41,585 nt of DNA from a virus (IMGVR_UViG_3300021138_000060:1-41585); one strand, 5' to 3'; counted from the stretch's first letter, positions 441-34,549 are shown. Notes: a model not told the origin generated them from the letters alone. Numbers and translations are program-made.

Positions 441-2132
441 ATGCATCCTATCGATAAAGAACTAAAACTAATGCTTGATGGTCGTTTTGATGAAGCTTGG
501 GAAATTTCTGAAGAACTTCAAAAGATCGGTCAAGGCGAAATAGAAGATAGTCAAGGTTTAAAAAATCCGGAAATGTGGACACGCCATAGCTTCAATCGTG
601 GTTGGTTCTTGCTACAACAAGGTCAGTATCAAGAGGGGTGTAAGCTTCTTGAAAATGGGCGTTACTTAAACGTATATGGTGGCGGTTTCTTAAAGACTGC
701 CGCTCCACTTTGGAATCCAGAAGAACATCCGGTTGATGGTAAAACGATTATACTTTCACTCGAAGGTGGGTTTGGTGATGAAATCATTCATGTTCGATTT
801 GCGGAATACTTAAAAAATAAAGGCTTTGACAAGGTAATTGTTGCTGCTGCACCTGAACTTCACTCAGTCTTTGCTCGTGTTAATGGTGTTGACCAGGTCA
901 TTCAAAGAGATCAGGCACATACAGTGGCACACGATTATTGGCTACCGGGATTTTCTGCTGGATGGGTAACTGGTAACACATTCGATACAATTGACCCAGG
1001 CCCATATCTTTCCGTAGAACCAAATAGCTCGTTGGTTTGGGATACACTCATTCAAAGCAAAGATAAGATCAAGGTTGGTATTCGCTGGGCAGGTAATCCA
1101 AAATTTGAACACCAACAATTCCGTTTGTTTCCTTCTCAGTTCTTGACTTCGCTTTCAAGATATAAGGAACTGGATATCTTCAGTTTCCAACGGGATCATC
1201 ATACGGTAAATCTTCCAGAAGGTATTACTGACCTGCAACATCTTCTTATCTCCTGGGAAGATACACTTGCGGCTATTAGCAAGATGGATTTGATCATTAC
1301 TTCTTGCACATCTATTGCTCACGCTGCGGCTGCTCTCGGCAAACCAACATGGGTTGTGGTTCCTATTCTGCCTTATCACACTTGGGCATGGGATGCACCA
1401 AAATCAACTGTTTCGCCATTTTATTCTTCAGTAACTCTGTATCGCCAGCAAAAGCCAAAGGAATGGACAGACACCTTCAACTTGCTTTACAAGGACTTGG
1501 AAAAGAAGTTTAAGTTGAAGAAAGCAAAAGCTCCTAAGATTATGGATAAGAAACTAAAGCTAAATCTTGGTTGTGGTTTTCAACACTTAGAAGGTTTTGT
1601 AAACGTTGATATTTCTGAAGCATGTAAACCAGATGTTCTTCATGATTTTATGCAGTTTCCTTGGCCTTTTGAAGATAACTCAGTAGATCATATTGTTGCA
1701 AAAGATATTCTGGAACATGTCGGATCAACACCAAAAGATTTCATCAATGTTCTGAAAGAAATGTATCGTATTTCTGCTGATGGCGCTGCTTGGGAGGTTC
1801 AATTCCCACATCATCGCAGTGATAATATTGTAAATGATCCAACACATGTTCGTTCTCTAACTCAGCAGACTTTTAGAATGTTTGATCAAAAAACAAATAT
1901 GGAATGGATCAAAACGGAACAAGCAGATTCACCTCTAGGTATTGATAACGATATTGATATTGAAGTTTGTGATGTTAAATTTGGTTGGAATGATATGTGG
2001 TCGGAAAAACTACGCCTCAAAGAAATTACCGAAGAACAGCTTTATTTCAATCTTCATCATATGAATAACATTGCTCATTCTGTGTTTTTGCTAATTCAAA
2101 CTCATAAGCCACAACGCTCAACAATCAAGTAA
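441..2132 (+). CDS. TPR-like / GT9-like glycosyltransferase fused to a SAM methyltransferase domain
   Basis: About 563 residues. An in-frame ATG lies at 429, but GGAG at 431-434 is well spaced for the ATG at 441, so 441 is preferred. Residues ~1-75 are helical and TPR-like (FNRGWFLLQQGQYQEG). Residues ~100-345 resemble the heptosyltransferase (GT9, GT-B) fold: LSLEGGFGDEI, then VGIRWAGNP, then TSCTSIAHAAAALGKP. Residues ~370-563 form a class I SAM-dependent methyltransferase: motif I LNLGCGFQHLEGFVNVDI and the later DHIVAKDILEHV. The fold assignments come from motifs; the substrate is unknown. It overlaps the next gene by 1 nt (TAATG). It may modify a fibre or a surface glycan; this is inferred from its neighbours only. 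Confidence 0.7.
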   Translation: MHPIDKELKLMLDGRFDEAWEISEELQKIGQGEIEDSQGLKNPEMWTRHSFNRGWFLLQQGQYQEGCKLLENGRYLNVYGGGFLKTAAPLWNPEEHPVDGKTIILSLEGGFGDEIIHVRFAEYLKNKGFDKVIVAAAPELHSVFARVNGVDQVIQRDQAHTVAHDYWLPGFSAGWVTGNTFDTIDPGPYLSVEPNSSLVWDTLIQSKDKIKVGIRWAGNPKFEHQQFRLFPSQFLTSLSRYKELDIFSFQRDHHTVNLPEGITDLQHLLISWEDTLAAISKMDLIITSCTSIAHAAAALGKPTWVVVPILPYHTWAWDAPKSTVSPFYSSVTLYRQQKPKEWTDTFNLLYKDLEKKFKLKKAKAPKIMDKKLKLNLGCGFQHLEGFVNVDISEACKPDVLHDFMQFPWPFEDNSVDHIVAKDILEHVGSTPKDFINVLKEMYRISADGAAWEVQFPHHRSDNIVNDPTHVRSLTQQTFRMFDQKTNMEWIKTEQADSPLGIDNDIDIEVCDVKFGWNDMWSEKLRLKEITEEQLYFNLHHMNNIAHSVFLLIQTHKPQRSTIK

Positions 2133-3364
2133 TGTTCGAAAAATCAATCAGAAAATCTCTGGCTGAAATTAGTGATAGTCTGGCTGCCGAATTGTTTTCT
2201 CAGAAGAAATATCAAGAAGCAATTTGGCAGATAGATATCACCAACAGTCTTATTGGAGGCGTTTTACCAATATCTCTTAAAAACAAAGCTGCTTGTTATA
2301 GTTTCCTTATGGAAGCTGATATGGCGGTGCGTGAGTTTGGCAATTATATGGATTTGTCCAATAGCGTAAGCAAAGAAGATATTCGTCAGATGGCGCAATA
2401 TTTCAATAATGCTGGTCGTATTCAGGATGGTTATGAATACATTTTAAAAAATCAACATGACTGCTCCGAAAAATGGTTGGATCTTGGATGGTATGCATAT
2501 CGAAATAAAGATTATGCTACTGCTTTTACTTATATGGAAAGAGGCAGAGATGCAGGTAACATCATTTGGATCGGCAAGGAAAAATATGATAATCTACCAA
2601 ATTGTCCTAGATGGCAAGGCGAACCACTAAAAAAAGCAAAAGTGCTATGCATTGCCGAAGGTGGTATGGGCGACGAATTTATATTTTCCAGATGGTTAAC
2701 GGTATTATGGAATCGTTATGGGCATGATTGTGATTTTGATTATTACACCACGAATACACTATCGGATGTTATAACAAGAAACTTCCCAGTCTCAAAATAC
2801 GATAAATCCAAGAAATATGATTACTGGTTTCCTATGATGAGTTTGCCATATCTTCTTAATGAAACTAAGATTAATATGCATACAAGTTATATCACACCGT
2901 CTGAAAAACATGTTGAAAAATGGAAGAAAATTCTAGGCAATAAGCAAATTGTTGCGTTGAGTTGGAAGGGCAGTAATACCTTTGCTGAGAACCATTTCAG
3001 AGATATAGATATTGACTATCTTGTTAAAAAACTAGGCAATCGTTTCACATTGGTCAGTGTTTGCAAGGAAGCAGATACTTGTCCAGCAGGTGTTTTAGAC
3101 TTAACTGATCAGATTGAATGTTGGGATGATACTCTAGCAATTCTGATGCTGAGTGAAATTGTATTTTGTTCTTGTTCCAGTGTTTCACATGCTGCTGGTG
3201 CATTGGGTGTTAAGACAATTGTATATACAAGACCTGATGATTATTTTACATGGGGTGGAACAGAATCAGGAAAGAAAACTGATTGGTATACAGATGTCAC
3301 TGTGTGGAGAACTAATCACATTGGAAAATGGCAAGAAGTTATTGATTTTTCAATTGAAAACTAG
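2132..3364 (+). CDS. GT9/heptosyltransferase-like protein with N-terminal TPR-like helices
   Basis: 410 residues, apparently a diverged paralogue of the preceding gene without the methyltransferase domain. The first ~150 residues look like tandem helical repeats (LDLGWYAYRNKDYATAFTYM). The rest has the GT-B signatures in the same order as the neighbour: CIAEGGMGDEFIFSRWL, VALSWKGSNTFAENHFRDID, and CSCSSVSHAAGALGVKT. The start ATG overlaps the upstream stop (TAATG), so the pair is translationally coupled. The product may act on a sugar donor, but substrate and acceptor cannot be told from the sequence. Confidence 0.65.
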   Translation: MFEKSIRKSLAEISDSLAAELFSQKKYQEAIWQIDITNSLIGGVLPISLKNKAACYSFLMEADMAVREFGNYMDLSNSVSKEDIRQMAQYFNNAGRIQDGYEYILKNQHDCSEKWLDLGWYAYRNKDYATAFTYMERGRDAGNIIWIGKEKYDNLPNCPRWQGEPLKKAKVLCIAEGGMGDEFIFSRWLTVLWNRYGHDCDFDYYTTNTLSDVITRNFPVSKYDKSKKYDYWFPMMSLPYLLNETKINMHTSYITPSEKHVEKWKKILGNKQIVALSWKGSNTFAENHFRDIDIDYLVKKLGNRFTLVSVCKEADTCPAGVLDLTDQIECWDDTLAILMLSEIVFCSCSSVSHAAGALGVKTIVYTRPDDYFTWGGTESGKKTDWYTDVTVWRTNHIGKWQEVIDFSIEN

Positions 3365-8875: not shown

Positions 8876-10954
8876 ATGTTAACTTTTCGTAAACTAAAAA
8901 CTATTATTTCCGAAGAACTTAATGATACCGAAAAGAAAACTGTTGCTAAATGGAAACGCGATCCAGAAGCATTGAGACATACTGATCATTATTTTGGTAT
9001 TGGTAATGACGATAAACACGAAGAACTTGCGGGAACTGTCGATAAATCCGAAATTCATAAAGCTGTCGAACGTCATTTAGGTCATAGTATTCACCCAGAT
9101 GATTATCGTGAGGGTTATACATTGGATAGACACGGCAGAAGGGTTAAGATTGGTTCTATGCTCGCTAAATCCAAAGCTGAACCTAAACTTATTAATAATT
9201 TTGCCAATGATAGCACCCGACAAGGACACAGACAAAGAGGTCTTTCCGTTCGTGTAACAAGGTCTCCCGCTGGCGTTGCTGGTCAGACTTCTCATAATCA
9301 ATCATGGGAACATCAGTCATGCAAAAATTTTAATACGGGGGTAAATCGTAGATACCTCAATCAAGAAGTTAAAAATGGGACAGTAGTTGCTTATCTTCAC
9401 AATCATAAAGGTGAAGAGATTGCAAGAACAACATTACAGCCACACATCAATGATGAAGGGCAAAGAGCATATGCGGTTGATTCTCACTACGGAATAGATC
9501 ACGCAGGTTTCAAAAAACATACAGAAAATCTAGCTAAAAGACTTTCTGGGGAACATAAAGGCGGCAGCATAATTTATAAAAAACACGATGAAGTATATAA
9601 CGATAATGCTGTGAAAACCATAATACACCCAAATGCAACTAAAGAACATATCGATAAAGCATTGGATGATAAAGATGACGGGGTTCGTAGAGCAGCAGCA
9701 AGACACCCAAATGCAACTAAAGAAAATATCGATAAAGCATTGGATGATAAAGATGACGGGGTTCGTAGAGCAGCGGCATCAAACCCAAATGCAACTAAAG
9801 AAAATATCGATAAAGCATTGGATGATAAAGATAACTGGGTTCGTAGAGCAGCAGCAAGAGACCCAAAAGCAACTAAAGAACATTTGGACAAAGCATTGAA
9901 TGATAAAAACCAATTTGTTCGTATAGCAGCAGCAGAACACCCAAAAGCAACTAAAGAACATATCGATAAAGCATTAGATGATGAAAATGACGGGGTTCGT
10001 AGAGCAGCAGCAGAACACCCAAATGCAACTAAAGAACATCTGGACAAAGCATTAGATGATAAAGATTTTTATGTTCGTGAAGCAGCAGTAAGAAACCCAA
10101 AAGCAACTAAAGAACATATCGATAAAGCATTGGATGATAAAGATAACTGGGTTCGTAGAGCAGCAGCATCACACCCAAATGCAACTAAAGAACATTTGGA
10201 CAAAGCATTGAATGATAAAGATTCATCTGTTCGTATAGCAGCAGCAGAACACCCAAATGCAACTAAAGAACATTTGGACAAAGCATTGGATGATAAAGAA
10301 TCATATGTTCGTAGATCAGCAGCAAGAAACCCAAAAGCAACTAAAGAAAATCTGGACAAAGCATTGGATGATAAAGATGACGGGGTTCGTAGAGCAGCAG
10401 CAGAACACCCAAATGCAACTAAAGAACATTTGGACAAAGCATTGGATGATAAAGATGACGGGGTTCGTAGAGCAGCAGCAAAACATTCAAATATGACTAA
10501 AGAACATTTGGACAAAGCATTGGATGATAAAGATGACGGGGTTCGTATGGCAGCAGCAAGAAACCCAAAAGCAACTAAAGAACCTTTGGACAAAGCATTG
10601 AATGATAGAAACAAATTTGTTCGTATAGTAGCAACAGAACACCCAAATGCAACTAAAGAACATTTGGACAAAGCATTGAATGATAAAGATTCATATGTTC
10701 GTATAGCAGCAGCAGAACACCCAAATGCAACTAAAGAACATTTGGACAAAGCATTGAATGATGAAAATGACGGGGTTCGTTTAGCAGCGGCATCACACCC
10801 AAATGCAACTAAAGAACATCTGGACAAAGCATTGGATGATAAAGATGACGGAGTTCGTAGAGCAGCAGCAAAACATTCAAATATGACTAACGAGCAATTT
10901 GAATTAAAAAAGTATTCAAATATGGTCAGAATTATAAAAGAAGCAAAAAAATGA
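8876..10954 (+). CDS. Solenoid protein with 16 HEAT/LRV-like 26-residue repeats and a unique N-terminal domain
   Basis: 692 residues, inserted between gp15 and gp16. Residues ~1-250 form a non-repetitive domain, starting MLTFRKLKTIISEEL (similar to short leader peptides of T4-like internal head proteins) and later containing RYLNQEVKNGTVVAYLHNH. From residue 251 there are sixteen perfect-length 26-residue units plus a degenerate terminal one; the consensus is H-P-N-A-T-K-E-H-L-D-K-A-L-D-D-K-D-x-x-V. Each unit would form two helices, as in HEAT or leucine-rich-variant repeats. Positions 18-19 of each unit vary strongly (DG, NW, QF, FY, SS, SY, KF). The function is unknown; a binding scaffold is likely. 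The ATG of gp16 overlaps its stop. Confidence 0.75.
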   Translation: MLTFRKLKTIISEELNDTEKKTVAKWKRDPEALRHTDHYFGIGNDDKHEELAGTVDKSEIHKAVERHLGHSIHPDDYREGYTLDRHGRRVKIGSMLAKSKAEPKLINNFANDSTRQGHRQRGLSVRVTRSPAGVAGQTSHNQSWEHQSCKNFNTGVNRRYLNQEVKNGTVVAYLHNHKGEEIARTTLQPHINDEGQRAYAVDSHYGIDHAGFKKHTENLAKRLSGEHKGGSIIYKKHDEVYNDNAVKTIIHPNATKEHIDKALDDKDDGVRRAAARHPNATKENIDKALDDKDDGVRRAAASNPNATKENIDKALDDKDNWVRRAAARDPKATKEHLDKALNDKNQFVRIAAAEHPKATKEHIDKALDDENDGVRRAAAEHPNATKEHLDKALDDKDFYVREAAVRNPKATKEHIDKALDDKDNWVRRAAASHPNATKEHLDKALNDKDSSVRIAAAEHPNATKEHLDKALDDKESYVRRSAARNPKATKENLDKALDDKDDGVRRAAAEHPNATKEHLDKALDDKDDGVRRAAAKHSNMTKEHLDKALDDKDDGVRMAAARNPKATKEPLDKALNDRNKFVRIVATEHPNATKEHLDKALNDKDSYVRIAAAEHPNATKEHLDKALNDENDGVRLAAASHPNATKEHLDKALDDKDDGVRRAAAKHSNMTNEQFELKKYSNMVRIIKEAKK
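9626..10951 (+). repeat. 78-bp coding tandem repeat, 16 full units plus a degenerate 17th
   Basis: Units start at 9626 and recur every 78 bp up to 10873; 10874-10951 is a diverged last unit. Long stretches are identical between units (for example CCAAATGCAACTAAAGAACA), while the codons for residues 18-19 differ. Such high nucleotide identity suggests recent duplication and gene conversion. Confidence 0.9.
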
Positions 10955-11364
10955 ATGAAGACAACGACGAAGACCCATTAAACCGAGCTTTGGGATTGGG
11001 TCCAATACCAGAAAATAACGTTGCCATAGCAATGATTATGGATAAGATTAGCGACGATTCTGCACTGGAAGATTTTACCTTTGCTCGTGCTAATATTCGT
11101 GAAGTAATCGAAAATGGAACAGAAGCAATTGCTAAACTTGCTGTAATTGCTGATCAATCGCAAAATCCAAGAGCATTTGAAGTTCTGGCAAAACTTATGG
11201 ATACTGTAACAAACGCTTCCGAAAAGATGCTGGATATTCAAAAGAAAGTTAAAGAAATGACCAAAGCTTCTGAAACAAGCGATGGAGAAAAGAAAGTCAC
11301 CAATAATTTATTCGTAGGAAGCACAGCAGAATTACAAAAAATGATAGAGGATATGAAGAAATGA
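10951..11364 (+). CDS. gp16: Terminase small subunit gp16
   Basis: 137 residues (T4: 164), acidic N-terminus and a long helical centre (FTFARANIREVIENGTEAIA) typical of T4-like gp16. It recognises and regulates packaging of DNA together with gp17. ATGA overlaps join it to the repeat protein upstream and to gp17 downstream, so translation is coupled. Confidence 0.88.
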   Translation: MNEDNDEDPLNRALGLGPIPENNVAIAMIMDKISDDSALEDFTFARANIREVIENGTEAIAKLAVIADQSQNPRAFEVLAKLMDTVTNASEKMLDIQKKVKEMTKASETSDGEKKVTNNLFVGSTAELQKMIEDMKK

Positions 11365-11759
11365 GTTTTACGGCAAATATCAATAATTATAAAGGATATA
11401 ACGCGAATCCACTTTTAAAAAAATCTGGCGTTGAAATTAATTGGACTCCTGAAATTGTCGAAGAATATATGAAATGTTCCAGAGATGTTATATATTTTGT
11501 CGAAACATATATGAAAATTATCAACGTTGACAAGGGTTTAATTCCCTTTCATCCGTATGATTATCAAAAAGATATGCTTCGTTCTATGGCCGAAGAACGC
11601 TATACAATTATTGGAACAGCACGTCAAGCAGGAAAATGTTTTTGTATAAATACTCCTATACGAGCCAGAAATAAAAAAACTGGTCAAATTATAGAAACTA
11701 GTATAGGAGAGTTCTATGAAATGCAATCAGTGCGACAACCAATTCGAACAAAAACGTAA
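11361..11759 (+). CDS. gp17: Terminase large subunit gp17, N-terminal part plus N-half of a split intein
   Basis: 132 residues. Residues 1-92 are the N-terminal region of gp17 and end in the first part of the Walker A motif, GTARQAGK. At Cys93 the sequence changes to an intein N-terminus: CFCINTPIRARNKKTG, then QIIETSIGEFYEM (block A: Cys1, T-P-I, G, and the I-x-x-F/L end). It stops at TAA 11757 after 40 intein residues, with a TAG two codons later. The remaining intein half and the rest of the terminase are encoded separately from 11973. The chain must be trans-spliced to Ser in the second chain to rebuild GK-STT. The split and block assignment are read directly; splicing activity is inferred. 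Confidence 0.88.
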   Translation: MSFTANINNYKGYNANPLLKKSGVEINWTPEIVEEYMKCSRDVIYFVETYMKIINVDKGLIPFHPYDYQKDMLRSMAEERYTIIGTARQAGKCFCINTPIRARNKKTGQIIETSIGEFYEMQSVRQPIRTKT

Positions 11760-11838
11760 AAATAGTCTGTGGTGCTCTGTTTCTTGCCGAGATACATGGA
11801 ACACAGTCAAAAAAGCAAAGAAAAATATAATGGTATGA
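11716..11838 (+). CDS. Small zinc-finger ORF nested between the intein halves
   Basis: 40 residues starting MKCNQCDNQFEQKRKNSLWC and then SVSCRDTW, giving C-x2-C ... C-x3-C, a zinc-binding knuckle like those of homing endonucleases and HNH-type proteins. It starts inside the intein N-half in another frame; AGGAG at 11705-11709 is well placed for ATG 11716. It has no nuclease residues. It may be translated, or may be only the first exposed piece of a decayed endonuclease. Confidence 0.5.
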   Translation: MKCNQCDNQFEQKRKNSLWCSVSCRDTWNTVKKAKKNIMV

Positions 11839-11997
11839 ATGAACAAGAAGATTATGTGGTCTGTGATATTTGTGGGTTCTGCGCCGCTGCTTTATCCGGT
11901 CATCTGGTTTCTCATAACATTACCACAGAGGAATAATGATTATAAAAAATATCCAGAGGAAATTGTTGAAAAATGCTTAAACTTTCTGAGAGAGTAG
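11796..11997 (+). pseudogene. Decayed homing-endonuclease DNA-binding segment (frameshifted)
   Basis: From ATG 11796 (or ATG 11835, coupled by ATGA to the ORF before) the frame reads KYNGMNEQEDYVVCDICGF and then AAALSGHLVSHNITTEE before TAA at 11934. This is the C-x2-C ... H-x3-H finger typical of phage homing endonucleases. In that family it usually continues with an EYKKKYP-like segment. Here DYKKYPEEIVEKCLNFLRE is found directly after, but in another frame (11938-11994, stop 11995). Together with the preceding ORF this suggests one protein broken by at least two frameshifts. Confidence 0.45.
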
Positions 11998-13724
11998 AAC
12001 GAAAATTTATAGAATCTTTTGATGTTGATGATTGGGAAATTGACACAGATACTGGTTGGCAATCGATTTCCTCTATTCATAAAACCATTGAATATGAAGT
12101 GTGGGAAATTGTGACGGAAAATGGTGCAAAAATATTATGTGCTGACACTCATATAGTATTTGACCAGAATTTTAATGAAATTTTCGTAAAAGATTGTATT
12201 CCTGATTTTACTTTGATAATGACACGCGCAGGCCCATCAAAAGTAAAATCAGTTGAACAACTTTCAATATCAAAAGAAAATATGTTTGATGTGACCGTGG
12301 ATAGTGATGATCATCGTTTATGGACTGGTGATATTCTTTCACACAATTCGACAACGACTTGTGGATTTATTCTATGGTATATTCTTTTTAACTCCGAAAA
12401 GGTTGTTGCGCTTCTTGCTAACAAAGGAGAAACGGCCCGAGAAATTCTTGGTAAGATTCAGCTTGCGTATCAACATCTTCCAAAATGGTTACAGCAGGGC
12501 GTCGTTGAGTGGAATAAAGGATCGTTTGTTCTTGAAAACAATTCTCGTGTTATCGCTTCTGCAACGTCATCCGATAACATTCGTGGGTTCTCGATTAATC
12601 TTCTATTCATCGATGAGGCTGCGTTCATTGAAAATTGGGATGCATTCTTTACCTCAGTTTATCCTACCATTTCTTCCGGTCTGTCAACAAAGGTCGTTCT
12701 GGTATCAACACCAAATGGATTAAACCACTTTTACCAGATATGGCAAAATGCTCATGAAGGCGTAAACAACTACAAGCCAATCAAAGTCACATGGGATAAT
12801 GTTCCTGGCCGTGATGATAATTGGAAAAGAGACACCCTTGCGTCTATGAACTTTGATACCGAAAAGTTCGAGCAAGAATATTGTGTTGAGTTCCTTGGTT
12901 CATCAGGCACACTAATTTCTGGTTGGAAACTTAAAGAACTGGTTGCGCAAAGACCAATTCAGCAAAAAGAAGGTCTTACACTTTATAAACATCCGGCAGC
13001 AAACCACGTCTATACTTGTATCGTTGACGTTTCTCGTGGTAAAGGACTGGACTATTCTGCATTCAGTATTATTGACGTTACAAAAATGCCATACGAGCAA
13101 GTATGCGTCTATCGAAACAATACTGTAACACCCATTGATTACGCTGACGTTGTATATCGTGTAGCCAAATCATATAATAATGCAGCTACGTTGGTCGAAA
13201 TTAATGATATAGGTGAACAAGTTTCTACTTCATTACACTATGATTTTGAATATGACAATATTTTGTTTACCGAATCTGCTGGTCGTTTGGGTAAAAGAAT
13301 TACTACTGGATTTGGTAATAATGTTGATCGAGGTATCAGAACATCAAAAATCGTGAAATCTGTTGGTTGCTCGATTCTAAAATTGCTTATTGAACAAAAC
13401 CAGCTAGTGATCAATGATTTTAATACTATTGGTGAGCTTGCAACATTTTCCAAAAAAGGATCAAGTTACCAGGCAGAACCAGGGAAACATGACGATATGG
13501 TTATGGGTCTTGTGCTGTTTGCTTGGTTATCGGATCAATCGTATTTCAAAGATATCACAGACATAAATACCTTAGCAAGACTCAGAGAAAAATCTGAAGA
13601 AGATACAATCAATGATTTACTTCCTTTTGGTTTCGTGGACTTTGGTGGTGATCTGGAAGATGTTTTTGATCAGCGACCTATGCGCAGTTGGATGAGTGAC
13701 GAAGTAGAAAACGAGTTTTTATAA
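11973..13724 (+). CDS. gp17: Terminase large subunit gp17, C-half of the split intein plus ATPase/nuclease body
   Basis: 583 residues. The first 125 are the intein C-half, ending ILSHN. From Ser126 the terminase continues: STTTCGFILWYILF completes Walker A, LLFIDEAAF is Walker B, and STPNGLNHFYQIW is the coupling motif. The nuclease domain follows with IVDVSRGKGLDYSAF and KHDDMVMGLVLF (metal-binding Asp residues). The spliced product would be 92 + 458 = 550 residues, normal for a T4-like gp17, which packages DNA and cuts the concatemer. ATG 11973 is preceded by AGAGGA at a rather long distance; stops in all upstream codons exclude readthrough from the first half. Confidence 0.9.
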   Translation: MLKLSERVERKFIESFDVDDWEIDTDTGWQSISSIHKTIEYEVWEIVTENGAKILCADTHIVFDQNFNEIFVKDCIPDFTLIMTRAGPSKVKSVEQLSISKENMFDVTVDSDDHRLWTGDILSHNSTTTCGFILWYILFNSEKVVALLANKGETAREILGKIQLAYQHLPKWLQQGVVEWNKGSFVLENNSRVIASATSSDNIRGFSINLLFIDEAAFIENWDAFFTSVYPTISSGLSTKVVLVSTPNGLNHFYQIWQNAHEGVNNYKPIKVTWDNVPGRDDNWKRDTLASMNFDTEKFEQEYCVEFLGSSGTLISGWKLKELVAQRPIQQKEGLTLYKHPAANHVYTCIVDVSRGKGLDYSAFSIIDVTKMPYEQVCVYRNNTVTPIDYADVVYRVAKSYNNAATLVEINDIGEQVSTSLHYDFEYDNILFTESAGRLGKRITTGFGNNVDRGIRTSKIVKSVGCSILKLLIEQNQLVINDFNTIGELATFSKKGSSYQAEPGKHDDMVMGLVLFAWLSDQSYFKDITDINTLARLREKSEEDTINDLLPFGFVDFGGDLEDVFDQRPMRSWMSDEVENEFL

Positions 13725-24000: not shown

Positions 24001-24362
24001 TGATTCCTGTAGAACAAGAATTTTTTTACGATAGGGGTGAAATTGGTGATTGTGTTCGCGCGATTACTGCTTCTATTCTAGAATTAGATAGAAAGGATGT
24101 TCCTCATTTTGTTAAAGATCAACCCGGATCAGATTGGTATGATACTTGGGAAAAATTCATGATTGATCACGGAATAAATCCAATCATGTTAACTGGTCCT
24201 TGGGAAAAACCACCAAAACCAGTAGGTTATTATTTGGCATCTGGTCCGGCTGATAGAGGATGTAAGCATATAGTAATAATGTGGGATGGAAAAGTTGTGC
24301 ATGACCCACATCCGTCTAAATCTGGATTGATCGAAATCGAAGCTATATGGATATTGCAATAA
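24001..24362 (+). CDS. Small papain/C39-like cysteine peptidase-fold protein
   Basis: 120 residues. GGAG at 23987 is spaced for ATG 24001, so the in-frame ATG at 23985 is not the preferred start. EIGDCVRAITASILELDRKD carries the Gly-Asp-Cys typical of a papain-like nucleophile; KHIVIMWDGK supplies a His and VVHDPHPSKSG a following Asp. This Cys ... His ... Asp order, with GDC-x-RA, occurs in a family of small phage proteins of unknown role. Activity is inferred from motif order. The stop overlaps the endonuclease start (TAATG). Confidence 0.55.
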
Positions 24363-25189
24363 TGAATAAAAAATATGGATTTGTTTATATCTGGTTTGAT
24401 CGCAAACACAAACGTTACTATGTTGGATGCCATTGGGGATTTGTTGATGATGGTTATATCTGTAGTTCACCTTGGATGAAAAAAACGTATAAAAATCGAC
24501 CACAAGATTTCAAAAGACGCATATTGAAAAATAACATACATTCCAAAAATGAAATGTATGACGAAGAGATGCGTTGGTTGAGAATGATAAAAATTTCAGA
24601 AATAAAACCATCGAACGAATTTCCGCGATATTATAATTTGAACATAAAAAACAACGAAACTTGGCACAAATATGATGATTCTATAAAAAATGTAGGTCAA
24701 AAAATATCAATAGCCAAAAAAGGTAAAAAGACCGGTCCATGTTCTCCTGAAAAAGCAGCAGCAATATCGATAGCAAAAAAACAAAAAAATAGAAAATTTA
24801 CCGAAGAACATAAAGAAAAGCTAAGACAAGCAAAAATTGGGATGAAATATTCTGATGAAAGAAAACAGGAAATTAGTGATCGAGTTAAAAACGAATGGGC
24901 TACCGGTAAAAGAATTCCGCGAGGCATACCACTATCAGACGAACATAAATCAAAAATTTCTACTTCGCAAAAAGGTAAGAAAATTTCACCAGAACAAATA
25001 GAGACGATGAGAAAATCAAATTCAAAAAAATATATTATATTATTTCAAAATGGCAACCAAAAAACTATATTTGGTCTCAAACAATATTCTAAAGATAATA
25101 ACATACCTTATGTTTCATTATATAAAGCGTCACAAAATAAAACAAAATTACCAAAATATTTCATAGAAAGTATTTCACTCTCGGTATAA
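24362..25189 (+). CDS. GIY-YIG homing endonuclease with NUMOD3 repeats
   Basis: 275 residues from ATG 24362 (an in-frame ATG at 24347 is possible). GFVYIW ... RYYVGCHWG is a GIY-YIG core with variant first strand, and DEEMRWL supplies the downstream Glu. Residues ~115-225 hold several NUMOD3-type DNA-binding motifs (ISIAKKGKKTG, FTEEHKEKLRQAKIG, LSDEHKSKISTSQKGKK). The organisation is like the free-standing T4 Seg endonucleases, which spread by cutting genomes that lack them. The gene is more A-rich and Lys-rich than its neighbours, consistent with recent transfer. It follows the capsid module. Confidence 0.85.
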   Translation: MNKKYGFVYIWFDRKHKRYYVGCHWGFVDDGYICSSPWMKKTYKNRPQDFKRRILKNNIHSKNEMYDEEMRWLRMIKISEIKPSNEFPRYYNLNIKNNETWHKYDDSIKNVGQKISIAKKGKKTGPCSPEKAAAISIAKKQKNRKFTEEHKEKLRQAKIGMKYSDERKQEISDRVKNEWATGKRIPRGIPLSDEHKSKISTSQKGKKISPEQIETMRKSNSKKYIILFQNGNQKTIFGLKQYSKDNNIPYVSLYKASQNKTKLPKYFIESISLSV

Positions 25190-28554: not shown

Positions 28555-29627
28555 TGAAGATTGCGCTTATTTGCGATACCCATTGGGGCGTTAGGGGAGA
28601 TAATATTGCCTTTTTGGATAACAACAAAAAGTTCTTGGATAACGTGTTCTTTCCGACCATCGATGAAAATAAAATTGAAACAATTATACATCTTGGTGAT
28701 TTGGTAGATCGTCGTAAGTATATTAATATTCAAACAGCCAAACGTTTGCGTGAAGATTTTATTGACCCCATCGCAAAACTCGGAATCGATTACCATCAGA
28801 TTTTGGGCAATCACGATATATTTTTCAAAAATACAACGTCAGTAAATGCCGTCCAAGAACTTTGTTGTCCTGGAATGGATTCGCCTCGCTTTCATGTTTA
28901 CGATAAAGCAACAGAAGTGATTTTTGATGACACAAAGTTTCTGTTTGTTCCCTGGATATGTGCGGAAAACAAAGATGACACGTTCGAAAAAATTAACAAT
29001 ACGACTGCTCAAATCTGTCTTGGGCATCTCGAATTACGCGGCTTTCAGATGTTTAAGGGTAACGTCTCGACTCATGGCGATGATGCAAACATTTTTAGTC
29101 AGAAGTTTGATATTACTTGTTCTGGTCATTACCATCATCGTTCAAATGATGCTGGTGTTCATTATCTTGGTAGCCACGGTCAGTTTACTTGGTCGGATTA
29201 TGGAGATTCTAGGGGTTTCCATATCTTAGACACCAAAACAAGGGAATTGACTTTTATCGAGAACCCATATAGAATGTTCATGAAAGCGTTCTATGATGAC
29301 AGCAACTGCACCTCTGATGAACTACTGAATTGTGATTTCAGTGCCTTTAACGGTGTGCTATGCAAAATCGTTGTTCGTAATAAAACCAATCCTTACTGGT
29401 TTGATATGTTTTGTGAAAAAGTCGAAAAGGCCGGTGCTTTGGATATTCAGATTGTTGAAGATCATTTGAATCTAGACCTACAAGAAGAATCTGATATTGC
29501 CGAAGATATCGAAAACACTATCGACATTTTTCGTAATCATATCAATGATATATCTGGTTCTGTCAATAAGCAAAAACTTGAAGACGTAATGATTAACCTC
29601 TATCGTGAAGCGGCAACACTTGAATGA
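28554..29627 (+). CDS. gp47: Recombination nuclease subunit gp47 (SbcD/Mre11 family)
   Basis: 357 residues (T4: 339). Phosphodiesterase motifs in order: CDTHWG (8-13), GDLVDRR (48-54), GNHD (85-88), then LGHLE and GHYHHRS with the metal-binding His. Together with gp46 it resects DNA ends to start recombination-dependent replication. ATGA overlap with gp46. Confidence 0.95.
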   Translation: MKIALICDTHWGVRGDNIAFLDNNKKFLDNVFFPTIDENKIETIIHLGDLVDRRKYINIQTAKRLREDFIDPIAKLGIDYHQILGNHDIFFKNTTSVNAVQELCCPGMDSPRFHVYDKATEVIFDDTKFLFVPWICAENKDDTFEKINNTTAQICLGHLELRGFQMFKGNVSTHGDDANIFSQKFDITCSGHYHHRSNDAGVHYLGSHGQFTWSDYGDSRGFHILDTKTRELTFIENPYRMFMKAFYDDSNCTSDELLNCDFSAFNGVLCKIVVRNKTNPYWFDMFCEKVEKAGALDIQIVEDHLNLDLQEESDIAEDIENTIDIFRNHINDISGSVNKQKLEDVMINLYREAATLE

Positions 29628-31339
29628 ATATTGAATTTAAATTTATTCGTTGGAAGAATTTTCTTTCTACGGGAAATATTTTCACAGAAATTGATCTAAG
29701 CAAAGCAGGGACCACACTCATTGTTGGTGAAAATGGTTCCGGTAAGTCAACTATGCTGGATGCGTTGACCTTTGGTTTGTTTGGTAAGCCTTTTCGTAAT
29801 ATCAATAAAGGCCAGCTAGTAAATTCTATCACACGTAAAGATGCTGTAGTTGAGATCGAATTTTGGTCTGGTTCAAACATCTATCGTATCGTTCGTGGTA
29901 TAAAGCCTAATATCTTTGAGGTATACTGCAACGAAAAACTGATGAACCAAGATGCCGAGATGAAAGATTATCAGGCAATTCTTGAAAAACAAATCCTCAA
30001 AATCAATTTCAAATCATTCTGTCAGGTTGTTGTTCTTGGGTCCGCTTCGTTTGTTCCGTTTATGCAACTTACAGGTCCAAACCGTAGAGCCATCATCGAA
30101 GACCTTCTTGATCTTGAAATTTTTACCAAAATGAATGTTTTGCTTAAGGAACAAATTCAGCAAAACGAAAAAGATGTTCAAGAAACCGAAAATGATAAAA
30201 AGGTAGTCAAGACCAAGATTGATATGGTCCATCAATATCTTAAAGAAATTCGCTCCAAGAATGATGAATTTATCAAAAATAAGCAATCGGTAATCGATGA
30301 ATATACGGCTCATATTGAAACAGATAAGCATGAACTAGAAACTTTACAAAAACAAATTGATGAACTGGTCTCTCAAAGAGAAGATAAAGTTCACATCGAT
30401 AACGATTTAAATAAGCTTCGTGATTACCGCACCAAGTCTATGAATAATCGAGATATTTTAAAGAAAGAAATCTCCTTCTTCAAAAAACATGAAAATTGCC
30501 CAACGTGCTCACAGGGTATTGAACCTTCTTTTGCAGCCGAAATTGTGCAGGATAGACAAGCTAAAATTGATAAAATTGACAAAGCAATGATTAAATGGGA
30601 AGACGCTAACAATAAAGTCAGAGAACGTGCAGTAAAACACAGTGAAATTAGTGACAAACTTTATGCCGTAAATTCTCTTTTTGTGGAAGTTCAAAATTCG
30701 ATCAAACACTACAAGTCAATTTGTGTGTCTGCTCAAAACGAAATTGATAACGCAAAAAAATCGGTAAAGCAAACAACTGAAACGAAAATTGCCGATCTCG
30801 AAAAAGACTTAACCACTATTGAAAATAAATTCAATACTCTACAGGAAGATCGTCAAGTGCTGGCCGCTGCTGCTCTTATGTTAAAGGACGGTGGTATCAA
30901 AACAAAGATCATCAACCAATATATTCCGGTTATCAACAAATTGGTCAACAAGTATCTAGCAATGATGGATTTTTTTGTTAGCTTTGAAATGAACAGTGAA
31001 TTTCAAGAAAGCATCAAATCAAGATACCGCGATGATTTTAGTTATGCATCATTCTCTGAGGGTGAAAAACAAAAAATTGATTTGGCCTTGTTGTTCACAT
31101 GGAGAGCAGTAGCCAAACTTCGTAACTCAGTCAGCACTAACTTGTTGATTTTGGATGAGGTTTTTGATAGTTCATTAGACTCATCAGGGACAGATCAACT
31201 TATGGTTATCATCCAATCACTCGCAGCCGATAACAGTATGTTCGTTATATCACATAAGGAACAAATGAATGACAAGTTCAGTAATATCATTCGGTTCACG
31301 AAACACAAAAATTTCTCTAAGATGGAATCCGCAGCATGA
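29624..31339 (+). CDS. gp46: Recombination ATPase subunit gp46 (SbcC/Rad50 family)
   Basis: 571 residues (T4: 560). Walker A GENGSGKST (35-43), long coiled coil with the zinc hook CPTC (292-295) in the middle, ABC signature SFSEGEKQKIDLALLF and Walker B LLILDEVFDSSLD near the C-terminus. Partner of gp47. All catalytic features are intact. The stop overlaps the next gene (ATGA). Confidence 0.96.
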   Translation: MNIEFKFIRWKNFLSTGNIFTEIDLSKAGTTLIVGENGSGKSTMLDALTFGLFGKPFRNINKGQLVNSITRKDAVVEIEFWSGSNIYRIVRGIKPNIFEVYCNEKLMNQDAEMKDYQAILEKQILKINFKSFCQVVVLGSASFVPFMQLTGPNRRAIIEDLLDLEIFTKMNVLLKEQIQQNEKDVQETENDKKVVKTKIDMVHQYLKEIRSKNDEFIKNKQSVIDEYTAHIETDKHELETLQKQIDELVSQREDKVHIDNDLNKLRDYRTKSMNNRDILKKEISFFKKHENCPTCSQGIEPSFAAEIVQDRQAKIDKIDKAMIKWEDANNKVRERAVKHSEISDKLYAVNSLFVEVQNSIKHYKSICVSAQNEIDNAKKSVKQTTETKIADLEKDLTTIENKFNTLQEDRQVLAAAALMLKDGGIKTKIINQYIPVINKLVNKYLAMMDFFVSFEMNSEFQESIKSRYRDDFSYASFSEGEKQKIDLALLFTWRAVAKLRNSVSTNLLILDEVFDSSLDSSGTDQLMVIIQSLAADNSMFVISHKEQMNDKFSNIIRFTKHKNFSKMESAA

Positions 31340-32575: not shown

Positions 32576-32945
32576 AAAAACAGAATTTTCGCTCACGACA
32601 GCAGAAGTAAAGTCACTTCGTGGTGTTCAGGAAAAATTGCATAATCAATCCGTAAATATGGGGTGGCATAAGAAGCCCCGCGAAATCGGAACTTTGATTG
32701 CTTTGTGCCACTCAGAACTTTCAGAAGCACTTGAAGGTGCGCGTAAGGGTTTGATGGATGATCATCTCACCGAACGACAAATGATTGAGGTAGAACTTGC
32801 TGACTGTATTATCCGCATACTGGACCTTGGTGGGTCGCTTAACCTTGATATCGCTGGCGCAATTGCAGAAAAACATGACTACAATGCACACAGAGAAGAT
32901 CACCAACTTGCAAACAGAGAAAAGGCAGGAGGTAAAACATTCTGA
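32562..32945 (+). CDS. MazG-like nucleotide pyrophosphohydrolase
   Basis: 127 residues from the second of two adjacent ATG codons (32559/32562; AAGGA suits the second). ELSEALEGARKG supplies the E-x-x-E helix and VELADCIIRILDL the second metal-binding E-x-x-D helix of the all-alpha NTP pyrophosphatase (MazG) superfamily. Phage MazG proteins hydrolyse non-canonical or excess NTPs. It overlaps the next gene by 1 nt. Confidence 0.8.
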   Translation: MPKSKKTEFSLTTAEVKSLRGVQEKLHNQSVNMGWHKKPREIGTLIALCHSELSEALEGARKGLMDDHLTERQMIEVELADCIIRILDLGGSLNLDIAGAIAEKHDYNAHREDHQLANREKAGGKTF

Positions 32946-33361
32946 TGAGTAGAGTAATTAATGGTGGAAACATCAATCCTATTCCAGATACAACTGTATT
33001 TAATCCTGCGATAGATATATCACAAAATTATATACATAGTTTACAAGTTAAAAACTCGAACAAAATTGTTGGTCCTACCATTTCGCCAACGTATAAATAC
33101 AAAGAAGCAACCATTCTTGAAGATATGCTTGAATATGTGAACAAAACATATGGAGAGCACTACAAGAAAGAAAATATCGAATGCCTTGACGCATGGATTG
33201 CTCGTGGAACTGCTGCTACTACGTGTGTTGATACTGCCGAAAAGTATCTCTGGCGTTATGGTTCCAAAGAAGGCAAAAACAAAAAAGACCTAATGAAAGC
33301 AATGCATTATATTATGCTGACGCTTTATATCGATCATTATAGAAAAGAAGGTGAAATATAA
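32945..33361 (+). CDS. DUF3310-like protein
   Basis: 138 residues. The C-terminal half, ATTCVDTAEKYLWRYGSKEG then KNKKDLMKAMHYIMLTLYID, matches the conserved K-Y-L-x-R-x-G-x-K ... D-L-x-K-A core of the small phage DUF3310 family, often annotated as nucleotide-kinase-like. The N-terminal ~50 residues are unstructured. The stop overlaps the start of the next gene (TAATG). Confidence 0.65.
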   Translation: MSRVINGGNINPIPDTTVFNPAIDISQNYIHSLQVKNSNKIVGPTISPTYKYKEATILEDMLEYVNKTYGEHYKKENIECLDAWIARGTAATTCVDTAEKYLWRYGSKEGKNKKDLMKAMHYIMLTLYIDHYRKEGEI

Positions 33362-34549
33362 TGGAAATTAAAATTGAAATGGACGATCTTCGCAAGCGTC
33401 GTCTTATGTTATGTGTGCCAATGTATGGTAGTTCTGCCTCGTAATTTAGTAATTTATTACGATAATTGAGTGAATTGCTGGAAACTCCTTAGAGCCAATG
33501 ATCTACACGATATACTGAAAAATGTATCGAACAGACCGAAAAACATTGGATTGGACAATCAGCAGCCAAGCCCCTAAGTCATTAAAAATGATATGGTGAA
33601 GGTTCAACGACTATCCCGTAAGGGAGTAGAGAATAAGCCGACGATTCTCGAAGTGCTCAACTCCTATTTGAAATAGGATGAAGATATAGTCTAATCTTTA
33701 TAGAAATATAAAGCAGTTTCTCAAAAGAAACGATATGAATTTTGCGAATTCATGTGAATATAAATGGGTCAATGTGTAGGGATGTTCGCCAAATCTGTTG
33801 CTGATTTGACTGCAATGTGCGCAGCAAATGGTATTCATATGCAGTCTTACTTCCTCTTTAACGAATCTCTTATTACTCGTGCTCGTAATTATTGCGTTGA
33901 TGAATTCATGCGTTCTGATTGCACACATATGATGTTCATCGATTCGGATATTGGTTTCGATCCGCGTGATGTTCTTGCGATGTTGGCTTTGCAGTCTGAT
34001 GATTCCGACTATGATGTTCTTGCTGGTCCTTATCCCAAGAAGTGCATTAGCTGGGAAAAGATTAAACTTGCTGTTGATAAGGGTATGGCAGATGAAAACC
34101 CGAATGCACTAGAACGTTTCGTTGGTGATTACGTTTTCAATCCAAAAGGCGGTGGCGGTTCATTCCGTATTGATGAGCCTATCGAAGTTTCTGAAATTGG
34201 CACCGGTTTCATGATGACTCGTAAAAGCACTTTTGAAAAGTTCCGTGACGCTTATCCTCAATATTCCTATAAGCCGGATCACATCCGCACAGAACATTTC
34301 GATGGAACCCGCGAAATTCATATGTATTTCCAGGCCGAGATCGAACCGGAATCGAAGCGTTATCTTTCCGAAGATTATTGGTTTTGTCATTATCTAGGTA
34401 AGATTGGTGGTAAAATTTGGTATTGTCCTTGGATGCGTCTTCAGCACGTTGGTAGCTATATCTTTGGTGGTTCTCTTGCAGACCTCGCATCTATTGGAGC
34501 ACCTGCAACGGCTGCACCAGAAATGCTAGGAAAAAAAGAATTAAGTTGA
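33361..34549 (+). CDS. GT-A glycosyltransferase, gene interrupted by a group I intron
   Basis: Exon 1 is 33361-33429 (23 codons, ending CVPMYG) and exon 2 is 33767-34549 (starting GQCVGMFAKS). Joined they give 283 residues and the continuous motif VPMYGGQCVGMFAKSVADL, usual for phage members of this family. CTHMMFIDSDIGF contains the D-x-D metal/nucleotide-sugar site (D82, D84); EIGTGFMMTRKSTFEKF and SEDYWFCHYLGKIGGKIWY follow as in GT-A enzymes. Without recognising the intron the gene would be wrongly started at an ATG (33764) whose bases belong to the intron. Substrate unknown. Confidence 0.82.
33430..33766 (+). ncRNA. ORF-less group I self-splicing intron
   Basis: 337 nt. 5' splice site after U33429 with P1 GGU/GCC (U-G wobble); 3' splice site after omega-G 33766. 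Core elements in order: P (AATTGCTGGAAACTCC, from 33473), Q (AATCAGCAGCCAAGC, from 33557), R (GTTCAACGACTATCCCG, from 33602) and S (AAGATATAGTCT, 33681-33692). R and S form P7 (GACTA/TAGTC). P2 is CGTAAT/ATTACG. Three hairpins near the 3' end (CTTTATA/TATAAAG, GTTTCT/AGAAAC, ATGAATT/AATTCAT) are P9-type. Similar to the T4 td/nrdB introns, subgroup IA likely. No endonuclease gene inside. Confidence 0.9.

Follow-up and report, generated by a model that had tools for sequence, protein, structure and literature searches.

How can a large terminase subunit (TerL, gp17) be whole when its gene is broken inside the Walker A motif? The question arises from IMGVR_UViG_3300021138_000060 (G000), a T4-like phage represented by a single assembled contig of 41,585 bp without reads, the whole of which is referred to here as the window. 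Its TerL gene is most plausibly a fractured gene, interrupted at a new site by an atypically split Walker A intein, with an eroded homing endonuclease (HE) gene between the two halves. Judging from the sequence, the intein is very probably a naturally split one of class-1 type (Cys1, terminal Asn, Ser+1) which joins TerL by trans-splicing, the gene having been fractured by the HE that is now dead.

The window has the gene order gp16-gp17-gp18, which its relatives share. gp17 is encoded by two open reading frames (ORFs), each made up of an extein and an intein half (IntN or IntC). ORF1 (11361-11759, 132 residues) reads through GTARQAGK, the first half of Walker A, continues with CFCINTPIRARNKKTG and ends once 40 residues of the intein have been encoded. 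ORF2 (11973-13724, 583 residues) begins with 125 intein residues ending in ILSHN, followed by STTTCGF. The features of the locus are as follows.

10951-11364, forward strand: gp16, small terminase, from ORF and gene order; runs over the start of ORF1
11361-11636, forward strand: TerL/gp17 N-extein, 92 residues with C-terminal GTARQAGK; matches phrog_5989 terminase (1.6e-23)
11637-11759, forward strand: IntN, 40 residues with Cys1 and block A, then TAA; homologous IntN in about 88 split loci
11973-12347, forward strand: IntC, 125 residues, with an ATG of its own that lies across the 3' end of the endonuclease gene; ADTH in block B, D106/H114 in block F and HN in block G; Hint fold model
12348-13724, forward strand: TerL C-extein, 458 residues, Ser+1 first (STTTCGF); PF03237/PF17289 matches

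Joined, the exteins form a protein of 550 residues with Walker A whole (ARQAGK-STTT), and the Pfam matches of ORF2 (Terminase_6N, 3.8e-18; Terminase_6C, 1.3e-7) are far above chance. The initial annotation had proposed a two-gene TerL of these coordinates and lengths, and the ORFs, the terminase domains and the joined product agree with it.

To what position does the break correspond in an uninterrupted TerL? Among the best 80 loci from an IMG/VR scan with ORF2, about 75 are intein-free, and where these cover the junction, residue 92 of the N-extein directly abuts residue 1 of the C-extein with no gap and no overlap. This puts the insertion precisely at the bond joining P-loop residues K92 and S93. 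This alignment to intein-free gp17, which had been suggested as a check, upholds the placement of the intein inside Walker A. The claim that the site is distinct from that of AceL-TerL is upheld too. The AceL-TerL site, which we take to lie before Cys-Glu-Phe, has a visible counterpart in Vibrio phage Va1, where the intein precedes CNFLGSS, equivalent to about residue 272 of the spliced window protein. In the window protein the CEF equivalent begins at residue 272 and is uninterrupted, and the site at 92/93 lies about 179 residues upstream of the CEF/CNF site.

The evidence for an intein comes from both sequence and fold. An IntC profile built from 20 members, a type of search also suggested in the initial annotation, matches VidaL (6vgv, 3.8e-12), gp41-1 (1e-11) and Cat (6dsl, 1.8e-8). 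An AlphaFold model of the window IntC (pLDDT 91) has the Hint fold, with inteins as its top Foldseek matches, and the best structural matches of a modelled contiguous relative (L183, pLDDT 87) are likewise inteins. Invariant in a 55-row IntC alignment are T38, Y41, A57-D58, H60, G87, D106, H114 and S123-H124-N125. The splicing nucleophiles of the window intein are Cys1 and Ser+1, and no catalytic residue is lost. The two proposed intein halves thus stand, with their catalytic blocks intact.

In the L183 model, the counterpart of IntN comprises strands at 7-12 and 18-22 and a helix at 23-44, after which a disordered linker spans 45-62. This linker is the slot of the HE in split copies, and the split therefore falls after helix alpha-1. 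On this model, the window intein is split at the S2 position, as in AceL-TerL and GOS-TerL. The earlier description of IntN as atypically short, with the intein divided 40/125 at a point separating blocks A and B, also holds. Conservation of IntN covers only about 28 residues; the last 12 or so overlap the 5' end of the endonuclease gene, which is read in a different frame. IntN homologues from the approximately 88 split loci have lengths of 30 to 64 residues with a median of 38.

What broke the gene? The spacer of roughly 210 nt and the overlapping parts of both ORFs make up a dead HE gene that had been overlooked in the initial annotation. The sister locus L001, 91% identical across ORF2, shows the same split around a complete HE ORF of 324 residues, which overlaps both halves in another frame. 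The L001 HE combines an N-terminal zinc-binding part (ROS_MUCR) with a C-terminal DUF559 (Vsr-like) nuclease domain (7.6e-6) carrying the motif IIEFDGVYWH, which is conserved as IIEFDGxYWH in A7. The free-standing HE between the halves is also intact in L191, a contig from a Kiruna metagenome bin (CAIWHI010000271.1). In the window it is a frameshifted and deleted remnant with the following parts.

11705-11718, forward strand: HE ribosome-binding site and start (AGGAG, 6 nt, ATG), in the +1 frame within the codons of the conserved IntN motif IGEFYE
11716-11997, forward strand: wreck of a free-standing Vsr/DUF559-type HE, from DNA alignment and a tblastn search with the intact HE of L001
11716 to about 11805, forward strand: zinc-binding N part, in the HE (+1) frame
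about 11808 to 11934, forward strand: zinc-finger part, in the intein frame, 3' of a 1-nt deletion
11934/11935, forward strand: junction of a 692-bp deletion that took the central and catalytic regions, from alignment with L001
11935-11997, forward strand: last 20 or so HE codons (NDYKKYPEEIVEKCLNFLRE, then stop), HE frame regained

The HE gene starts with the ATG at 11716, and the IntC start codon (11973) lies within its last codons. A Shine-Dalgarno-like site plus ATG embedded at this position is common but not universal: of 42 split copies that have a Vsr-type HE, 29 carry it. Compared with L001, the window HE has a 1-nt deletion near 11803-11815 as well as the 692-bp deletion, whose L001 flanks share a short ATGAA-type microhomology. 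In the alignment with L001, the nuclease domain with the IIEFDGxYWH motif is absent from the window HE. As a single query, the L001 HE matched just itself in IMG/VR, and a profile was needed.

The HE remnant between the halves would place the locus among the "fractured genes" and would explain the split of the intein. Dassa et al. reportedly described, in 2009, conserved phage genes broken by split inteins with a free-standing Vsr-related HE gene in between, and canonical split inteins are said there to break between blocks B and F. L001 and L191, with a Vsr/DUF559-type HE in between, fit this description in full. The window departs from it in having an eroded HE, a split located between blocks A and B, and the TerL P-loop as the interrupted site.

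Could the two ORFs be an artefact, i.e., a contiguous intein broken by a sequencing or assembly error? IntN and IntC do share one reading frame, and contiguous inteins exist at this site in Ackermannviridae and in some IMG/VR contigs. However, IntN and IntC are separated by several stops in the intein frame, the spacer can be recognised as what is left of an HE gene read in another frame, the neighbouring long ORFs are intact, and L001 and L191 are split alike around their complete HE. On the stops and the sister loci, we rejected this explanation as very unlikely. The dN/dS values against L001 bear on the next candidate, that TerL is a decaying pseudogene with a broken intein, as the HE part clearly is decaying. 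IntC has a value of 0.08 and the C-extein one of 0.055 (the 0.54 of the first 28 IntN codons comes from too few sites to carry meaning), all catalytic residues are kept, and a second terL was not found within the 41.6-kb record, a fragment of a genome that may have one elsewhere. The pseudogene, rejected on dN/dS, has even less probability than an artefact; the TerL host gene and the splicing domain have been kept under purifying selection despite the dead HE.

An RNA intron joining the halves has a precedent in ICP1, where terL is RNA-spliced (PMC10448857), and the window does contain a group I intron, though at 33415-33713. That match is the sole one in an Rfam scan of the window, which found no group I or group II intron at the break or elsewhere in 11.3-13.7 kb, while both flanks encode intein blocks, the second ending in HN directly before Ser, and the intein borders are exactly where the exteins join. 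On the Rfam result, an intron was set aside as no more credible than the pseudogene. Finally, a two-subunit TerL working without splicing, for which an HE-made "gene in pieces" functional as two peptides, a ribonucleotide reductase, offers a model (described in PMC10448857), is the least credible of all and was rejected, since the break falls within a P-loop (GK-ST) that must be one loop for ATP binding and the splice-junction residues are conserved in split copies.

Some observations weigh against a split intein whose gene was fractured by an HE. Pfam Intein_splicing reaches E=0.034 at best on ORF2, the Shine-Dalgarno sequence of IntC is weak (AGAGG, 13 nt from ATG), and in a single contig without reads the 1-nt deletion in the HE may be a sequencing error, though the 692-bp deletion by itself takes out the nuclease domain.

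How, then, would TerL be assembled from a fractured gene? Translation would give one protein per half, N-extein-IntN and IntC-C-extein. In the Hint fold, strands 1-2 and helix 1 would come from the short IntN and the remainder from IntC, and trans-splicing between Lys92 and Ser93 would then yield the P-loop ARQAGKSTT and the 550-residue TerL. We infer that the window halves splice in trans, and efficiently so in vivo. The fracture itself may have come about when a free-standing HE gene, encoding zinc-binding domains and a Vsr/DUF559 nuclease, landed between the halves in the +1 frame relative to the intein and overlapped both. An intact HE presumably cleaves the empty Walker A site. In the putative order of events, the window HE would then have been killed by the 1-nt and 692-bp deletions and the split would have stayed; it persists because removal of the HE left stop codons in the intein frame.

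Two isolated phages whose detected TerL halves are dispersed speak to trans-splicing. In Vibrio phage vB_VmeM-32 (KU160494), the halves are found at about 1102-3216 (forward) and 79947-80624 (reverse), about 79 kb apart, and carry an IntC and an IntN that match. In Salicola phage SCTP-2 (MF360958), halves with matching IntN and IntC lie at 256428-257321 (forward) and 429356-429748 (reverse), about 173 kb apart. With the halves so far apart and on opposite strands, a single TerL therefore needs protein or RNA trans-splicing. By analogy, these two arrangements would be the best indirect evidence that such inteins splice in trans. Near Walker B, the C-half of vB_VmeM-32 TerL has a further intein, which is contiguous, and the C-half ORF of SCTP-2 ends in an apparent second intein N-part, such that its TerL may be in three pieces.

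Which known systems does the window resemble? AceL-TerL, GOS-TerL and Cat share with it the TerL host, a short IntN and a long IntC. Their IntN lengths are 25, 37 and 30 residues, Cat being an engineered consensus (PMC11766414), and AceL-TerL and GOS-TerL have their natural split after helix alpha-1, at the "S2" position (PMC13014065). They differ in insertion site (CEF/CNF) and in nucleophiles, being Cys1/Cys+1 or Ser1/Cys+1 where the window has Cys1/Ser+1. Cat (6dsl) is matched by the window IntC in both profile and fold, with IntC sequences only about 23% identical. VidaL is the best match of the window IntC in sequence and structure but, unlike the window, is split after beta-2 with an IntN of 16 residues (PMC13014065).

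The contiguous TerL inteins of Ackermannviridae (VAP7, Kuja, RPN242) occupy the same site (GK-T), and their IntC parts are 37-44% identical to that of the window; unlike it, they are unbroken mini-inteins without an HE. A TerL intein has been reported for Salmonella phage Maynard (PMC3868846). The TerL inteins of Campylobacter phages CP220, F379 and IBB_35 have a homologous IntC in the TerL P-loop, but at PRQ-SSKST and not at GK-S. In CP220 (L104) the intein is contiguous, and in its close relative F379 (L105) the same intein is split by a T5orf172-like HE. The IBB_35 paper took a related arrangement for an intein plus an intron.

Is the element mobile, and how widespread is it? A cassette of 1404 bp is 98.9% identical between L191 and L001, whose N-exteins and C-exteins are only 64% and 69% identical, respectively, with sharp boundaries at the splice junctions. 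This pattern is a signature of recent homing in which split intein and HE moved as one unit. From profile scans and tblastn searches of phage genomes, 102 family loci were collected, 80 of them non-redundant. Split copies with a Vsr-type HE make up 43 of the 80, split copies with a T5orf172 (GIY-YIG) HE 13, and split copies without an HE nine; four, including the window, are split with a decayed HE, nine are contiguous and two have dispersed halves. Altogether, 71 of the 80 are split, including the two with dispersed halves. The initial annotation had suggested that the intein might belong to a rare class, which is not borne out, given this fraction and at least 537 relatives confirmed in one scan. 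Split copies occur in the cultured phages Delftia PhiW-14, Campylobacter F379, Vibrio VmeM-32 and Salicola SCTP-2.

By a script based on sequence pattern, the host genes are TerL (53) and gp46-like (27), and L197 is in addition located in a gp44-like clamp loader. The gp46 Walker A site is taken by homologous split inteins in L085-L088, L090, L096 and others. The window has an empty copy of this site.

29624-31339, forward strand: gp46 with uninterrupted Walker A (GENGSGKSTMLDALTF)

The HE is eroding in the window, L115, L116 and L171. Copies without an HE are scattered on the tree, requiring nine changes of which at least five are forced by well-supported branches. L091 and L092 have nearly identical inteins, and the HE is gone in the former and present in the latter. 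IntN and IntC share a frame, with the HE at +1, in 38 of 43 split copies of the Vsr type, and are in different frames in all 13 of the T5orf172 type. Comparison of L092/L093 with L084, L090, L113 and L130 shows unrelated nucleases (Vsr/DUF559 and T5orf172) in one slot, with similar DNA-binding regions. Delftia phage PhiW-14 (L109) has an unannotated TerL N-half with IntN at 2476-2946, upstream of the annotated gp17, forming an HE-less split intein. In Vibrio phage Va1 (L102, 2281-4566), IntC at the AceL-type TerL site is fused in frame to a Vsr-type HE. A free-standing HE of the same family lies just upstream of an intein-free terL in Caulobacter phage Cr30 (L101, 2986-4008), possibly a case of collaborative homing.

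Some relatives hide the HE out of frame. Ten analysed loci (L204-L217, L263), which apart from a single outlier form a clade in the HE tree, have contiguous inteins of 421-451 residues that run through the whole HE gene. At L162/L204 (IMGVR_UViG_3300044729_002140), L205-L214, L216, L217 and L263, a complete Vsr-type HE gene is read in the +1 frame inside the intein; the terL ORF of L162 is 1015 codons long. The dual-coded loci have no intein-frame stop over about 270-310 codons, where synonymous shuffles give a mean of 15-23 and a minimum of seven; in most split copies, about 30-54 intein-frame stops lie over the HE gene. At HE identities of 39-60%, the out-of-frame linker is 19-36% identical, no higher than in closed copies. 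The linker is not conserved as protein, and therefore only the openness of the frame appears to be selected. As open and overlapping frames, the ten loci look solid. The nearest published case found is the ShiLan element, whose HNH endonuclease is read out of frame and which according to its authors is neither intein nor intron (PMC11855218).

Does dual coding account for the split in the window? Conceivably, the window represents one stage of a single mobile family of Walker A inteins in which the split arises when dual coding lapses and stops close the intein frame, IntC then being translated from an ATG in the HE 3' end, but we regard this as doubtful. The HE tree needs just two changes between dual-coded and closed, and L001, the sister of the window, is in the closed part. 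The window HE remnant is too short to be placed on that tree.

The window thus adds a natural, atypically split intein with Cys1/Ser+1 at the P-loop GK-S/T site, a site used repeatedly in the unrelated ATPases TerL, gp46 and gp44. Its dozens of environmental homologues are a useful source for building trans-splicing tools in which IntN is short. All stages in the life of an intein parasite are represented in the family, namely intact and mobile (L001/L191), with HE swapped, eroding or gone, with halves dispersed and with HE hidden. With all stages in one family, the birth of natural split inteins becomes directly testable. Most surprising of all are the dual-coded relatives.

Elsewhere in the window, a protein of 692 residues with many tandem repeats of the HPNATKEHLDKALDDKDDGVRRAAA type is encoded at 8876-10954, between a gp15-like gene and gp16. 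A free-standing GIY-YIG-like endonuclease ORF lies at 24347-25189, downstream of the major capsid gene. The group I intron at 33415-33713 (RF00028, 101.5 bits) is located between ORFs at 32945-33361 and 33764-34549.
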